48,508 nucleotides of DNA from Marinitenerispora sediminis (GTDB lineage: Bacteria; Actinomycetota; Actinomycetes; Streptosporangiales; Streptosporangiaceae): NCBI RefSeq assembly GCF_003336425.1, contig NZ_QEIO01000089.1, forward strand, positions 1-48,508. Reading direction: 5' to 3'. The translations under genes and the position numbers were made by a program. The notes beneath the pieces are model-generated. The model was given only the letters and a program-made list of their open reading frames with translations. It searched no databases and had not been told where the DNA came from. This document shows positions 6,664 through 12,030 of this stretch, piece after piece. The first letter of the stretch is position 1; each line of letters opens with the position of its first letter.

Positions 6664-7036
6664 GGTGCTCCTTCCCGAGGCGCTGTCCGGGCGCTCCGCG
6701 GCTGCCGATATGTGGGATTCGATCACCCGCGGCTGTTCGGCTGCGTAGGGCCGGTTTCGTGGTCGATTCCTGAATCCGCCAGGACATTCTTCGACGATTC
6801 CGCGCGCGGGTGATCGGAAAATCGGCGGAGAATGCGCGGTGGTCGTGAAAGCCCCTTCGGGTATTGCACCAACACGGCACACTGGTCAGCAAGCGCGTTG
6901 CGGTGATTCGGAGTGACCTCATCAGGTCGCTCGACGGCGTGAACTCGCTTCCCGGGTGGAACGTCAACACATCGCTGTCCTGTGCTGTTCTGTCGACTGC
7001 CGCTGGTCTGGGACCCACACGTTCGGAGGCTGCTCG
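6664..7036. other. Divergent regulatory region, WbqC operon and glycosyltransferase
   Basis: About 370 bp without a supportable gene. It has lower GC than its flanks and must hold the divergent promoters of the leftward carbohydrate operon and the rightward family 2 glycosyltransferase. The one clear structure is an inverted repeat at 6911-6932: GAGTGACCT, four bases, AGGTCGCTC, with one mismatch. It could be an operator or leader hairpin. I could not match a c-di-GMP or c-di-AMP riboswitch. Confidence 0.5.
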
Positions 7037-8602
7037 GTGCGCACGGCGCGTCTCATCGGAAGCTGGCTGACCGGCCTGATCGCCCTCACCCTCGCCGTGG
7101 CGCTGTTCACGTGGTGGGTCCGCTACGTCCTGGACGCTCCGGCGGCGGGCATTCCGGCGCCGCTGCTGCTGTGGTCGGCGTTCGGCGTCAACCTCCTGGT
7201 GTGGAGCGCCGTCGGCCTGGTCCGGCTCGCCGACGACACGGTCCGCGCCGCACGGCGGCGCGCCGAGGCCCGCGCCGCCGCAGCCGTGCGGCGGGCACGC
7301 GCCGAGACCGTCGACCTCGTCGAGGCGCCGGTGGACCGCGTCCTGGTCCCTCCGCGCGTGGGCGGGGACGCCGCCGGCGGTGCCGAAGCGGCGCCCGCGG
7401 TGGCCCCGCCCGGCACCGCCGCGGCCCGCCTCCGGCCGCGGACCGTGGGGGCCGGGTCCGGGGACGCCGGCGCCTTCCGGATCGCGGTCGTCATTCCCGC
7501 CCACAACGAGGAGCCGGTCATCGGGGCGGCCATCACGTCGGCGCTGCGGCTGTTCGACCGCTGGGACGTCTACGTCGTCTCGGACAGCTCCAACGACGCC
7601 ACCGCGGAGATCGCGGCGCGCACCGGTGTCAACGTCCTGGAGCTGCTCAGCAACCGCGGCAAGGCGGGGGCGATCGAGACGGTGATCCAGGAGTTCGACC
7701 TGGTCGGCCGCTACGACGCCGTGGTCATCCTCGACGCCGACACCGAACTCGACCCCGGCTACGTGGCGGGTGTCCGGCGCCAGTTCGCCGATCCTGGCGT
7801 GGCCGCCGTCGCGGGGTTCGTGGTGGCGGAGTGGAAGCCGCGGGAGCGGACCGTCGTCGGACGGCTCATCGCCGCCTACCGCGACCGGCTGTACTGGATG
7901 CTGCAGTACCTCGTCCGCTACGGCCAGACCTGGCGGCGCACCAGCGTCACGTTCATCGTGCCGGGGTTCGCGAGCGCCTACCGCACCAGCGCGCTGCGGC
8001 ACATCGACGTCAACCCGCCGGGGCTGGTGATCGAGGACTTCAACATGACCTTCGAGGTGCACCACAAGCGGCTCGGCCGGATCAGCATGAGCCCCGACAC
8101 CCGGGCGTTGTGCCAGGACCCCTTCACCCTCGGCGACTACGCGCGGCAGGTGCGGCGCTGGACGCTGGGCTTCTGGCAGACGGTGCGCCGCCACGGCGCC
8201 TGGCCGAGCCTGTTCTGGGTGGCGCTGTTCGGCTACATCGTCGAGATCGTGCTGGTCGCGGCGCTGCTGCTGGTCGTCGCGGCGCTCGGGCTCTTCCTGC
8301 TGCTGCCCCCGCTGACCGGTGGCGCGGTCCTCGCCGTGGCCGCCTACGCCGACGGCTACGCGGCGGTGGGCGCGGTGCTGCCGCTCGCCACGATCGCCGT
8401 CGGCGTCTTCGTCCCGGACTACGCGCTCACCTGCCTGATGGCGCTGATCCGGCGCCGGCCGGGCTACCTCGTCTACGGCCTGTTCTTCCTGCCGATGCGG
8501 CTGGTCGACGCCTACCTGACCCTGCGGACCATCCCGCAGGCGTGGACCGCGGCCTCAGACGGCCGCTGGCGCAGCCCCGAGCGCAGCGGCCGGCCGCTCT
8601 AG
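7037..8602 (+). CDS. Processive family 2 glycosyltransferase, membrane-bound
   Basis: A 521-residue membrane glycosyltransferase of the PgaC/IcaA/hyaluronan synthase type. Two N-terminal transmembrane segments (SWLTGLIALTLAVALFTWWV; LLLWSAFGVNLLVWSAVGLV) precede an Ala/Arg-rich linker. The GT-A domain then shows VVIPAHNEEPVIGAAI, the DXD-like VVILDADTELDPGY (about residue 232), the catalytic-base region LVIEDFNMTFEVH and the acceptor motif QVRRW (about residue 370). Three or four C-terminal helices would form the export channel. The GTG at 7037 follows GGAGGC. It diverges from the WbqC/deacetylase/epimerase operon and may polymerise a hexosamine or related sugar; substrate and product are not shown. 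Confidence 0.86.
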   Translation: MRTARLIGSWLTGLIALTLAVALFTWWVRYVLDAPAAGIPAPLLLWSAFGVNLLVWSAVGLVRLADDTVRAARRRAEARAAAAVRRARAETVDLVEAPVDRVLVPPRVGGDAAGGAEAAPAVAPPGTAAARLRPRTVGAGSGDAGAFRIAVVIPAHNEEPVIGAAITSALRLFDRWDVYVVSDSSNDATAEIAARTGVNVLELLSNRGKAGAIETVIQEFDLVGRYDAVVILDADTELDPGYVAGVRRQFADPGVAAVAGFVVAEWKPRERTVVGRLIAAYRDRLYWMLQYLVRYGQTWRRTSVTFIVPGFASAYRTSALRHIDVNPPGLVIEDFNMTFEVHHKRLGRISMSPDTRALCQDPFTLGDYARQVRRWTLGFWQTVRRHGAWPSLFWVALFGYIVEIVLVAALLLVVAALGLFLLLPPLTGGAVLAVAAYADGYAAVGAVLPLATIAVGVFVPDYALTCLMALIRRRPGYLVYGLFFLPMRLVDAYLTLRTIPQAWTAASDGRWRSPERSGRPL

Positions 8603-8764: not shown

Positions 8765-9127
8765 GTGGATAAGAAGCGTCTCCCGTTCACGCTGTACCGT
8801 GTGCTCGCCTACGTGACCGGTGTCTGGCTGCTGCTGCTCGCCTTCGTCGCGATGCCGATGAAGTACTTCGTCGACCCCGACACCTGGGTGATGCCGGCCA
8901 TCGCCATCCCGCACGGCTACATCTACATGGTGTACGTGCTCGCCGTGCTGTGGCTGTCGCTGGACCGCAAGTGGGCCGCGGGCAAGACGCTCGGCGTCAT
9001 GATCGCCGGCACGATCCCGTTCGTGGGATTCGTCCTCGAGCACCGGGTGGCCAAGCAGGAGAAGGCGGCCATGGACGCGGAGGCGGCCGCCGCCCCCGCT
9101 CAGTCGGCGCCCACCGCCGAGGGCTGA
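8765..9127 (+). CDS. DUF3817 integral membrane protein
   Basis: A 120-residue membrane protein. It begins DKKRLPFTLYRVLAYVTGVWLLLLAF, continues with AMPMKYF and AIPHGYIYMVYVLAVLWLSL, and has a third helix (LGVMIAGTIPFVGFVLEHRVAKQE), the DUF3817 pattern of actinobacterial proteins. The tail is Ala/Glu-rich. I choose GTG 8765 because GAGGG lies eight bases upstream; GTG 8756 would add three residues but has no such site. The gene overlaps the 3' end of the convergent SURF1 gene by 28 bp. The family is often found beside SURF1-like genes in actinobacteria. Function is unknown. Confidence 0.85.
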   Translation: MDKKRLPFTLYRVLAYVTGVWLLLLAFVAMPMKYFVDPDTWVMPAIAIPHGYIYMVYVLAVLWLSLDRKWAAGKTLGVMIAGTIPFVGFVLEHRVAKQEKAAMDAEAAAAPAQSAPTAEG

Positions 9128-9945
9128 GCCCCGTCGGTCCCGTTCCGCGCGCCGCCGGACTCCCCGGTGGCGCGCAGCTCGGCGAGCTCCCGACGCACGA
9201 GCGAGACCCAGAACACGATCGCGGCGACGCCGAACACCGCCCACTGGGCCGCGTAGCTGACGTTGCGGAAGTTCCACTGGATACCGGCCGGGGGTTCCGG
9301 CGGCGGAACGATCCGCAGCCCGGCGTCAGCCGCCGCCTCCACACCGGCCGCACCGTCGGCGGCGGCCTGCTCGCCCAGCACCACGTAGCCGTCGTAGAGC
9401 CGGTACGGCCAGGCGTTCACCAGCACGGCGGGCGCGATCCGCTCCACCTCGCCGTCCGGCACCGACATCGCGCTGTACCCCTTGGTGTTCTCGGCCTGCG
9501 GGGGGCGCAGCCATCCCGTGACCGTCACCGCCCCCTCCGGCGGCGCCGGCGCCGCCCGGTCGGGCCCCACCTGCTCCTCGGGCAGCCACCCGCGGTCCAC
9601 GGCGACCGCCGCGCCGTCCGCCGTCACCAGCGGCGCCACGACGTTGTACCCCTCCTCGCCCTCGGGCGACAGCGCCGGGACGACCACCTGCCCCTCGGCG
9701 TCGAACGTCCCGCTGACCCGCACCGCCTCGTTGGCCAGGTCCTGCCCCACGTAGTCGCCCGGGCCGAGTACCGTCGCCAGGTCCACCGCGCTGGCGAGCT
9801 CCTCCACCGGGTTGGTGATCACCTCGCGCGAGGGTTCCTGCGCACGGATGAACTGCCAGTAGCCCAGACCGAAACACCCGAGCACGACGACGACGGCCAG
9901 CAGGTGGATACCCAGCCAGCGGGGTTGCAGAAGCGGGAAGCGCAC
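9100..9945 (-). CDS. SURF1 family cytochrome oxidase biogenesis protein
   Basis: A 281-residue protein with the SURF1 layout: an N-terminal membrane helix (WLGIHLLAVVVVLGCFGLGYWQF), an extracytoplasmic beta-rich domain with VRVSGTFDAEGQVVVPA, VDRGWLPEEQ and VTVTGWLRPPQ, and a C-terminal helix after WNFRNVSYAAQWAVFGVAAIVFW. SURF1 proteins assist maturation of haem-copper cytochrome c oxidase, probably haem a insertion. Translation starts at GTG 9945, with only a weak ribosome-binding site. The last 28 bp overlap the convergent DUF3817 gene, so antisense pairing of the two mRNAs is possible. No oxidase subunit genes are in the window. Confidence 0.88.
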   Translation of the reverse strand: MRFPLLQPRWLGIHLLAVVVVLGCFGLGYWQFIRAQEPSREVITNPVEELASAVDLATVLGPGDYVGQDLANEAVRVSGTFDAEGQVVVPALSPEGEEGYNVVAPLVTADGAAVAVDRGWLPEEQVGPDRAAPAPPEGAVTVTGWLRPPQAENTKGYSAMSVPDGEVERIAPAVLVNAWPYRLYDGYVVLGEQAAADGAAGVEAAADAGLRIVPPPEPPAGIQWNFRNVSYAAQWAVFGVAAIVFWVSLVRRELAELRATGESGGARNGTDGAQPSAVGAD

Positions 9946-10041
9946 GCGGTCCAGGCTATGTCCGCCTCGCCGACCCGCGTAGCTGACCCCCCGTTGGCGT
10001 CGCCACCGCGTACTTGGTCAGGAGTAGAGGCGCAGGTGGTG

Positions 10042-10056
10042 ATTACTTTAAGTAAT
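10042..10056. promoter_or_regulatory. Perfect 15-bp AT-rich palindrome, operator candidate
   Basis: ATTACTT, one central T, then AAGTAAT. An exact AT-rich palindrome is improbable in this GC-rich sequence. It lies about 97 bp upstream of the GTG of the SURF1 gene and just left of a promoter-like sequence facing the small-RNA locus. It could bind a MarR- or TetR-type regulator; none is identified. Confidence 0.4.
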
Positions 10057-10072
10057 TCGCCGTGACGGACGG

Positions 10073-10101
10073 TTGTTTCGCCAGGTGGGTGTGGGTAATC
10101 T
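10073..10101 (+). promoter_or_regulatory. Sigma-70-like promoter facing the small-RNA locus
   Basis: TTGTTT (10073-10078), a 17-bp spacer, then TAATCT (10096-10101). Spacing is ideal and both hexamers partly match the principal-sigma consensus. It would start a rightward transcript near 10108 that runs through the two hairpins ending at 10237. Confidence 0.35.
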
Positions 10102-10142
10102 ATGTACCAGCGCGAGAGGAAAACGCGCTTCGCGAGCTTTCA

Positions 10143-10239
10143 GAGGCCGCGACTCCAGGGGGGAGGAGTCGCAGGCCGTTCCCAAGGCGAGGGCCGTCTC
10201 CGTGATTTTTGAGGGGGGACACGGAGGCGGCCCTCGCGT
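10143..10239 (-). ncRNA. Two-hairpin small RNA candidate resembling 6C RNA
   Basis: Read on the minus strand, two stable hairpins each carry a loop with exactly six cytosines. The first has an 18-bp stem (arms 10237-10220 and 10204-10187, one A/C mismatch) around C6 at 10218-10213. The second has an 8-bp perfect stem (10172-10165 with 10156-10149), extended by GGCC/GGCC, around C6 at 10163-10158. Two C6-loop hairpins define 6C RNA, a conserved actinobacterial sRNA. A short CGCG-AAG-CGCG hairpin with TTTT follows at about 10134-10120. The strand is uncertain: read rightward, the mismatch becomes a G-U pair, the long stem is followed by GTTTTCCTT like a terminator, and a promoter-like sequence lies upstream. 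I assign the minus strand only because of the C6 loops. Confidence 0.5.
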
Positions 10240-11058
10240 TTTCCTTGTTATGGGCATCGCCGCTGGTGGACGCCGTGTCGCTGCCCGGTGAGTCGCTCGC
10301 AAGGGCCCTGCTCACACGTTTCTGATACGTGTGCGTCGCTGGGCGGCGAGGACCAGGGCGCCGTCGCGGTCATCCCGCCAAGGCCGGCGGCGGCGCGGTG
10401 TGCTGCCCGCGGCCCCGGCGGCGCGTGGTCGGGGCGGGCCCTTCTGGGGGGCTCGCTTCCCGGTGTGGTCCGGCGGCCCCTGTACGCCGGACATGCCCGG
10501 GTCGCGGTGGCGGGCCCGGCTCGGCGGGTGCGTGCTCGGGGAGCCGGGCCGACCGCCGGGGATCCTCCCCGTGCGCCGGCCGGCCGCGTCCCAGGGATGC
10601 CCGGTGGCCGAGCGTCCCGCCGAAGCCCTCCAGGGAAACGTAGATCGGTGTTCCGGGAAAGGAAAGGGGGTGGGGCGCTGTTTCGGCGGTGCCCGAAAAA
10701 CGCAGGTCCCGGCTCCGCCGGAACGGCTCGGGCGGGAGGGCGCGAGCGATTCGCCCGGGAGGGTGCGCGGGGCGGATGCGGACCACCCGCTGGGCAGGAT
10801 CCGCCGGGAGCGCTTGTACGTCAAAGGAAGGCGCGCCCGCGCGCACCGGGATGGCCGGGCCCGGTCAGCAGATTGACATGTGGCGCGAATTCGATCGAAA
10901 GTGGGCGATGCGGACTGCTTGGTATCCAACAGCGCACGATCGGGATGCTGCCGGAGGAAACCCACCCATCTCCTCCGCTGCCGCCACCAGATCGTGACCC
11001 CCCGCTCCAGCGGCCCGCCTTTCTGCATGTTCCACGACACAGCGGAACGGAATGCACG

Positions 11059-12030
11059 ATGCTGCGTATCCACTTTTCTCCCTGGGACTGGGGAAAGGTG
11101 CGGGTCATCTCTCGACCGGAACCCATGTGGGAGATCGTGCTCAGCCTCTACATGCTGGCCGAGGCCTCCGACGAGCTCGTCTTCGGGCAGTGGCGGCAGC
11201 GCGTGCTGTCCCAGTTGCCGCCCAACGCCCGCATGCTCCTCGACCTCGTGCCCGCGGTGGGCTACTCTCCGGACTTCCTCAGCCCGATCCTGGCGGGCCA
11301 CGACCTGTCGGACGGGATCGACGGCGTCCTCGGCACGCCCCGCGCGCGCATCGGTGACGAACTCGGGCTGCGCTTCGGCGACGCCCGGCGCCCCGCGTGG
11401 ACCATGGGCCTGCTCCGCAAGGAGAGCGCGTCCGTGCGCGCGCTGGGCCATGCCCTGCGTGACTACTTCGACGTCGCCCTCCGGCCGTACTGGGGCTACA
11501 TCTCCCACCTGGCGCAGCGCACCTCCCGGTCCGTCGCCGAGGGCGGCACCGGGCCGGCGGCCGCCATCGCCCAGGCGGCCACCCGCGGCCCGCGCCTCAC
11601 CACGGTGGAGCTCGCCTTCGGGGCCGACCAGGACCTGCACCTCGGCGGGCGCGGGCTGCTCCTGATCCCGGCGTTCTTCTGCGCCACCAACCCGGTGACC
11701 TTCTACGACCCCTCGCTGCCGCCGGTGGTGATGTACCCGGTCGACCACCCGCCGGTGTCCTTCCTGGCGCGGGCCACCGAGTCCGGCCGGCCCTCGGGGG
11801 ACGTCCTGGCCCGGCTGCTCGGCCGCACCCGCGCGGCCGTGCTCCGGACCCTGACCAGCGCCCACACCACCGGCGAACTGGCGCGGACCCTCGACATCTC
11901 CCTGCCGTCCGCGAGCGAGCACACCTCCCTGCTGCGCGCCGCCGGGCTGGTGTCCAGCGAGCGCCGCGGGAACAGTGTCCGGCACCACCTCACGCCGCTG
12001 GGGCTGGAGCTCCTGCACCCCGCGCACTGA
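11059..12030 (+). CDS. ArsR-type winged-helix transcriptional regulator with long N-terminal domain
   Basis: A 323-residue regulator. The first 240 or so residues form a domain typical of actinobacterial ArsR-like proteins (start MLRIHFSPWDWGKVRV, then MWEIVLSLYMLAE and VVMYPVDHPPVSFL). The C-terminal winged helix-turn-helix reads ARLLGRTRAAVLRTLTSAHTTGELARTLDISLPSASEHTSLLRAAGLVSSERRGNSVRHHLTPLG. The cysteine pair that binds metal in ArsR/SmtB is not visible, so a metal sensor is unlikely. The ATG at 11059 was preferred over upstream in-frame starts because residues before it are low complexity; its ribosome-binding site (GGAACGGAA) is weak. The target is unknown; the hydrolase gene downstream is a candidate. 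Confidence 0.75.
   Translation: MLRIHFSPWDWGKVRVISRPEPMWEIVLSLYMLAEASDELVFGQWRQRVLSQLPPNARMLLDLVPAVGYSPDFLSPILAGHDLSDGIDGVLGTPRARIGDELGLRFGDARRPAWTMGLLRKESASVRALGHALRDYFDVALRPYWGYISHLAQRTSRSVAEGGTGPAAAIAQAATRGPRLTTVELAFGADQDLHLGGRGLLLIPAFFCATNPVTFYDPSLPPVVMYPVDHPPVSFLARATESGRPSGDVLARLLGRTRAAVLRTLTSAHTTGELARTLDISLPSASEHTSLLRAAGLVSSERRGNSVRHHLTPLGLELLHPAH

Follow-up and report, generated by a model that had tools for sequence, protein, structure and literature searches.

What is the pair of hairpins that lies beside a SURF1-family gene in Marinitenerispora sediminis, on which strand is it an RNA, and what might such an RNA do? The window, that is, the whole stretch of DNA that was analysed (48,508 nucleotides, contig NZ_QEIO01000089.1), contains two hairpins, and the loop of each holds a run of exactly six identical bases, G on the plus strand and C on the minus strand, just as the preliminary description had it. 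That description left the strand undecided between a homologue of the actinobacterial 6C RNA read leftward, a G-loop RNA read rightward and transcription of both strands. The locus, called the G6 RNA here in anticipation of the answer, and its divergent neighbour are made up as follows.

Positions 9100 to 9945, minus strand: gene for a SURF1-family protein (cytochrome oxidase biogenesis; PF02104, 104 bits), the divergent neighbour of the G6 RNA.

Positions 10042 to 10056, no strand assigned: palindrome ATTACTTTAAGTAAT with core ACTTTAAGT, a probable (predicted) operator centred near -59 of the predicted transcription start; mean column identity 0.90 over 51 aligned rows.

Positions 10073 to 10078, plus strand: -35-like hexamer TTGTTT, 3 of 6 positions agreeing with the sigma-70 consensus; mean identity 0.86.

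Positions 10096 to 10101, plus strand: -10-like hexamer TAATCT, again 3 of 6, TANNNT in relatives; mean identity 0.86 (10093 to 10101).

Positions 10108 to 10246, plus strand: predicted G6 RNA transcript of about 135-140 nt, its start placed from the -10 hexamer and its end from the T run; the covariance match covers 10141 to 10246.

Positions 10145 to 10177, plus strand: hairpin 1, supported by the fold, G-U counts and covariation, with loop AGGGGGGA (A-GGGGGG-A) at 10157 to 10164.

Positions 10187 to 10237, plus strand: hairpin 2, stems 10187 to 10204 and 10220 to 10237 (18 pairs), terminator-like by eye.

Positions 10205 to 10219, plus strand: loop of hairpin 2, ATTTTTGAGGGGGGA, 15 bases, with the six G at 10213 to 10218.

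Positions 10238 to 10246, plus strand: T-rich tail GTTTTCCTT directly 3' of hairpin 2, including GTTTTCC.

On both strands the region folds better than 200 of 200 dinucleotide-shuffled sequences (z from -5.3 to -7.3), and folding energy therefore cannot pick the strand. A single hairpin with a C6 or G6 loop is not rare: when perfect stems of at least seven pairs and loops of at most 14 bases are counted, which leaves out hairpin 2 with its 15-base loop, the window holds one such tract (hairpin 1), and Markov shuffles hold 0.76 on average and 3 at most. The fold of the window sequence adds a long-range pairing of AGGAAAACGCG with CGCGTTTTCC, which is not conserved among relatives because the 5' region is variable. 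A small open reading frame was also considered and set aside; frames opening with ATG, GTG or TTG within the RNA reach only 29-38 amino acids, and relatives differ in the 5' region by insertions and deletions of various lengths.

Comparison with relatives excludes chance as the source of the two-hairpin locus, which is both conserved and covarying. Among 341 genomes of the GTDB family to which the window belongs, a DNA query of positions 10060 to 10260 (E ≤ 0.001) matched 73; two of these (G064 and G180), with weak matches of only 35-41 bases, were dropped, which leaves 71 with the locus, own genome counted. The stems covary. Twenty-nine pairs were counted in an alignment of 51 distinct sequences, and 98.0% of their 1,478 cells are standard pairs. 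Two-sided changes occur in 80 cells, compared with a shuffled mean of 24.9, and at 9 pairs, compared with 5.3, in shuffles that ignore relatedness among the sequences. One of the five measures, the number of further pair types, is unexceptional (25 against 23.4, reached by 50 of 500 shuffles).

The pattern of conservation indicates the direction in which the locus is read. Over the 51 rows, with gaps scored as differences, mean column identity is 0.49 upstream of the palindrome, where a few rows stop short. It rises to 0.90 over the palindrome and is 0.86 for each of the -35 and -10 elements; the 5' region has 0.66, the two hairpins have 0.93 and 0.87, the linker between them 0.75, the tail (10240 to 10246) 0.57 and the stretch from 10247 to 10275 0.51. 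From this profile the conserved unit runs rightward, from the palindrome to the terminator-like hairpin. The departures from Watson-Crick pairing are equally one-sided: in the same alignment 67 cells form a G-U pair on the plus strand and 4 on the minus strand. As a control, 41 sequences of 6C RNA gave 15 and 3, favouring the C-loop strand. Transcription of both strands is conceivable, but nothing supports a leftward promoter, and mean identity is only 0.51 just past 10247, where one would lie. The conservation of the promoter region, the direction of the G-U pairs and the loss of conservation just beyond 10247 together identify the plus strand, with loops of six G, as the right reading of the sequence. 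The suggestion of a G-loop RNA on the other strand is thus supported.

Two subsidiary claims for the rightward reading fared less evenly. The -35/-10 pair with its 17-bp spacer, TTGTTT to TAATCT, is there and conserved. Its hexamers are weak, at half of the consensus positions each, and a consensus promoter scan of positions 9800 to 10800 reported nothing; support for the pair comes from its conservation and not from its match to the consensus. A conserved GGGTA before the -10 hexamer would also fit a SigB/SigF-type site. In the window the long stem does contain a G-U pair and a T-rich tail does follow, but the tail is only partly kept across relatives and is weak in the Nocardiopsis-type rows.

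The notion that the locus is instead 6C RNA read leftward draws on the two hairpin loops, each of which reads as six C on the minus strand, and there is a real likeness: 6C RNA, known as B11 in mycobacteria, also consists of two GC-rich hairpins with about six identical bases in each loop. As far as the accessible text of PMC12395582 goes, B11 of M. marinum further resembles the G6 RNA in having its last loop within the terminator hairpin. The covariance model of 6C (RF01066), the check proposed in the preliminary description, was run and gave no match. It stays below its gathering threshold throughout the window, where no Rfam family reaches gathering, and is not among the ten matches obtained at E up to 10 in 601 bases around the locus. 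The same search left five of five G6 loci of relatives unmatched and recovered RF01066 at four of five control 6C loci, that of genome G346 (L194) among them, which scores above the Rfam cut-off. The bias of the G-U pairs toward the plus strand and the low conservation at the would-be leftward promoter also speak against a leftward 6C RNA, as does the setting, since the G6 RNA lies beside SURF1 and not ssd, where true 6C RNA is found in these relatives. The G6 RNA thus differs from 6C in its loops, its covariance and its neighbourhood, and we regard a leftward 6C RNA as barely credible. The G6 RNA is an RNA without an Rfam entry. No RNA of this kind, and no sponge of 6C, was described in the literature within reach of our search, which took in few subscription journals and in part only portions of articles.

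The invariance of the G loops in the 51-row alignment is circular, the rows having been picked by a pattern that demands the loops, and they were therefore rechecked in 50 loci (50 of the 71, own locus counted) chosen by similarity over the whole region. Loop 1 contains NGGGGGGA in 50 of 50, as AGGGGGGA in 43, TGGGGGGA in 6 and CGGGGGGA in 1, and loop 2 contains GAGGGGGGA in all 50. Every one of these loci thus displays GGGGGGA in both loops.

Such constancy bears on the most prosaic explanation, that the locus is an ordinary terminator or a DNA or leader element with no function in trans. Hairpin 2 has the appearance of a terminator, the consensus scan provided no promoter, and single hairpins with C6 or G6 loops occur at other sites. 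Set against these points are the conserved promoter-like region with its upstream palindrome, the 50 of 50 invariant loops and the apparent use of the 3' end of the RNA by an integrative element in one relative, described below. An element without a function in trans accordingly seems improbable to us. Hairpin 2 probably serves as a terminator as well. It was missed by the terminator scan because its loop exceeds the length which that scan allows, and the terminator-like hits reported near the locus (10185 to 10199 and 10223 to 10243) are other small stems. One of the single hairpins elsewhere, a strong one at about 1501-1556 of locus L117 in genome G008, has a loop with GAGGGGGGA or, on the other strand, C6. 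This hairpin may terminate transcription, or it may belong to a wider network of G-loop and C-loop RNAs.

Within the searches that were run, the G6 RNA is almost exclusive to the Nocardiopsidaceae. The covariance model R1, built from the 51 distinct sequences, matched 67 of 249 genomes drawn from the order and 17 of 296 drawn from the class, own genome counted, in samples whose share of genomes from outside the family is not given, and every listed match falls within the same GTDB family; its strict filters left only 13-16 candidates to be scored per genome, so that distant relatives may be missed. R1 also supplied one further, divergent copy, in Allonocardiopsis (L104 in G081). Each genome has a single copy, a second match in G142 being that same locus read on its other strand. 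When named genomes were scanned with a sequence pattern, 51 stretches emerged, from Nocardiopsis, Thermobifida (T. fusca and T. cellulosilytica), Streptomonospora, Marinactinospora, Murinocardiopsis, Allosalinactinospora, Actinorugispora and Allonocardiopsis, together with an unclassified Nocardiopsaceae strain, an "Actinomycetes" MAG, a record with the doubtful label Glycomyces fuscus and a Holophagales MAG. The structure is absent by eye from the match in the last of these (L170), which was judged to be chance. NCBI taxonomy places the genera with the G6 RNA under Nocardiopsidaceae, with the exception of Allonocardiopsis and Glycomyces.

The neighbourhood is constant as well. In all 18 loci that were examined, comprising 17 relatives with larger flanks and the Allonocardiopsis locus, the G6 RNA and SURF1 are divergent, and the SURF1 start lies 194-262 bases before loop 1; beyond SURF1 the 17 relatives have a DUF3817 gene and a glycosyltransferase gene. 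A SURF1 match was likewise found in 23 of 30 genomes that lack the G6 RNA. The 700 bases upstream contain neither an exact palindrome of the ACTTTAAGT type nor GGTTGTT in 26 of the 30 loci fetched from genomes without the RNA, and R1 applied to all 30 gave no convincing match (13.5 bits at best, compared with 66.6 for Allonocardiopsis L104). Since the SURF1 loci of genomes lacking the RNA show no palindrome, GGTTGTT or convincing model match, the G6 RNA seems to have arisen within this lineage. On its other side in the window, about 800 bases (10247 to 11058) separate it from the next gene with a recognised domain, which encodes an HTH_20 protein (11059 to 12030).

Integrative elements use the 3' ends of tRNA and small RNA genes as attachment sites. 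In one relative (L060, G175:C1:4730000-4744000) a 3.7-kb insert sits where the G6 RNA gene has its 3' end; it contains an open reading frame that resembles an integrase by eye (6747 to 8384), and a stretch of 57 bases, made up of the 3' arm of the hairpin and about 35 bases downstream, recurs on the far side of the insert. In this genome the RNA's 3' end looks like the attachment site of an integrative element.

What would an RNA with two constant G loops act upon? One candidate partner is 6C RNA itself. According to the accessible portions of PMC10470900, the C loops of 6C/B11 act on G tracts in 5' untranslated regions, and mutations in loop and leader compensate for each other. The example is eccB4 of M. 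abscessus, with six consecutive guanosines in its leader: B11 represses it, either loop is enough, and repression returns with compensatory mutations. Genes that contain long stretches of G are affected by B11 more often (PMC10470900). For M. marinum, the accessible part of PMC12395582 describes the C-rich loop of the terminator hairpin as the seed and a probable participation of RNase E. It is this published action of C loops on G tracts that makes a pairing of G6 RNA with 6C relevant.

Genuine 6C RNA is present elsewhere in the genomes of many relatives. A search of six genomes with RF01066 gave three above the cut-off and a best score of 26.6 bits, away from the ssd locus, in the own genome; this search is not fully sensitive, as Corynebacterium glutamicum was the sole one of 14 control genomes to reach E ≤ 0.001, with a score below the cut-off. 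A second model, R2, built from four of the 6C sequences found, matched 293 of 338 genomes of the family. Among 41 fetched 6C loci, ssd (TIGR03815) is adjacent in 38 and the gene of the other side in 39. Thirty-six of the 41 come from genomes with the G6 RNA, and their loops contain UCCCCCC or ACCCCCC(C); loop 1 has at least six C in all 36, and loop 2 as well in 25.

The loops of 6C are perfectly complementary to GGGGGGA, a point that the preliminary description did not raise. In 14 genomes, for C tracts of at least six, the net predicted pairing energy is -9.5 to -14.3 kcal/mol; it derives from -13.5 to -14.3 for the duplex of GGGGGGA with the C tract and opening costs of 0 to 4.4 for the G loop and 0 to 1.4 for the C loop, in a calculation that skips tracts costing more than 8 to open, ignores the geometry of kissing loops and has no control RNA pair. 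Five-C loops and two stray tracts pair more weakly (-1.1 to -11.1). In silico, then, the seed complement of the 6C loops is accessible and perfect in all 14 genomes.

These observations make it most likely, as a tentative first choice among the readings, that the G6 RNA is an antagonist of 6C RNA, acting as a sponge or target mimic. A regulator, probably an activator, would bind the upstream palindrome and switch the G6 RNA on; the RNA would be transcribed rightward from its own promoter with sigma-70-like hexamers and would accumulate. Its two stable hairpins would display GGGGGGA, mimicking the G tracts of mRNAs targeted by 6C, and the G loops may engage the C loops of 6C in kissing (loop-loop) complexes. 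In that event 6C would be held off its targets, which would be released, and both RNAs might be sent to decay. The palindrome (ATYACTTTAAGTRAT) is a single site in the own draft genome at one mismatch or fewer, and a literature search on it gave no paper that appeared related by its title. A more specific form of the antagonist reading, that the G6 RNA is a dedicated, lineage-specific double-loop mimic of G tracts, that the two RNAs neutralise one another through kissing contacts that need no chaperone, and that the regulator reads a site unique in the window genome, is possible but somewhat more doubtful.

Several observations count against an antagonist of 6C. 6C is present in lineages free of the G6 RNA. 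The five 6C loci fetched from such genomes have the same loops as those of G6-bearing ones, so that presence of the G6 RNA is not reflected in 6C. No loop-to-loop covariation between the two RNAs is apparent by eye; the G loops do not vary, yet loop 2 of the Nocardiopsis-type 6C mostly falls short of six C. The G tracts would, moreover, pair with C-rich mRNAs too. Nor is the presumed target recognised in every genome with the G6 RNA. A permissive search of 23 Nocardiopsis-type genomes that carry the G6 RNA placed 6C at the ssd locus in 11 (34-47 bits); G132 (30.9 bits) looks alike, and the remaining genomes, about half of the 23, gave no convincing 6C. The Nocardiopsis-type 6C sequences (L208-L218) are strongly diverged, and in 10 of 11 their loop 2 holds no more than five C.

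In the window genome the 6C gene is broken. The site was reached through the neighbouring gene (L239, G000:C312:9000-16000), where 6C is cut short. Hairpin 1, C7 loop included, is present up to GGAGCC, the sequence reading ...ACGGCGCCGGCTCTACCCCCCCGGAGCC, and is followed by a fragment resembling an IS982 transposase (30 bits, where the cut-off of the model is 130). An ssd-like open reading frame, identified by eye, lies beyond the fragment, and the second 6C hairpin was not found in the stretch. R2 applied to the own assembly yielded ten weak matches, none of them a convincing 6C (best 27.1 bits, with 150 of 18,233 candidates scored). The G6 RNA is nonetheless intact. Either the loss of 6C is recent, or the draft assembly of 441 contigs is wrong at this point, or the G6 RNA has targets other than 6C. 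Both the broken 6C of the own genome and the Nocardiopsis-type genomes without a recognised 6C therefore weigh against the antagonist reading.

The last of these options corresponds to a small RNA that acts in trans on mRNA targets of its own. Its G loops would bind C-rich stretches (UCCCCCC) independently of 6C, as a mirror image of 6C. The loops are invariant and mostly accessible, as they would have to be, C tracts are common in genomes of high GC content, and such an RNA would have reason to persist both in the window genome with its broken 6C gene and in the Nocardiopsis-type genomes. On the other hand, two repeated loops that are complementary to a coexisting conserved small RNA need no further target to explain them. 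We consider independent mRNA targets rather unlikely, if worth bearing in mind.

Where G6 RNA and 6C lie on one contig, in 20 genomes, they are 37-72 kb apart in 16 and 79, 100, 395 and 400 kb apart in the others, as determined by hand. This linkage may be mere conserved gene order.

Repeated G-rich loops could also titrate a protein. In CsrB and RsmZ-type RNAs purine-rich hairpin loops are repeated in a comparable layout, and CsrB sequesters CsrA; the two invariant purine-rich loops of the G6 RNA would suit a decoy for an RNA-binding protein of this kind. CsrA (PF02599) was, however, found in none of the eight genomes searched, compared with three positives among 14 control genomes. This removes the obvious protein partner and weakens the analogy with CsrB, and a protein-binding decoy has, in our judgement, a low probability.

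An antagonist of 6C would have recognisable company. Enterobacterial sponges and target mimics base-pair with the seed of another small RNA, and the G6 RNA would do likewise. It would differ in acting through loop-loop contact and in presenting the seed complement twice. GsrN of Caulobacter is a small RNA that acts through a C-rich loop on a G-rich RNA; in such a pair the G6 RNA holds the G-rich side.

Our searches on 6C together with sponges, which extended to titles and the openings of abstracts, gave no antagonist of 6C. The word sponge occurs nowhere in the accessible text of PMC10470900 and twice in that of PMC12395582, one place being the title of a reference. 6C/B11 is a widely conserved actinobacterial small RNA, and the B11 papers, in the portions available, describe the repression of targets through its C loops (PMC10470900, PMC12395582). 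If the antagonist reading is true, the existence of a natural counterpart with G loops would reveal how 6C gets switched off. Such a pair would also serve as a model for loop-loop regulation in which no chaperone is known, as well as a tool to probe the targets of 6C, and the G6 RNA is present in a culturable species, Thermobifida fusca.
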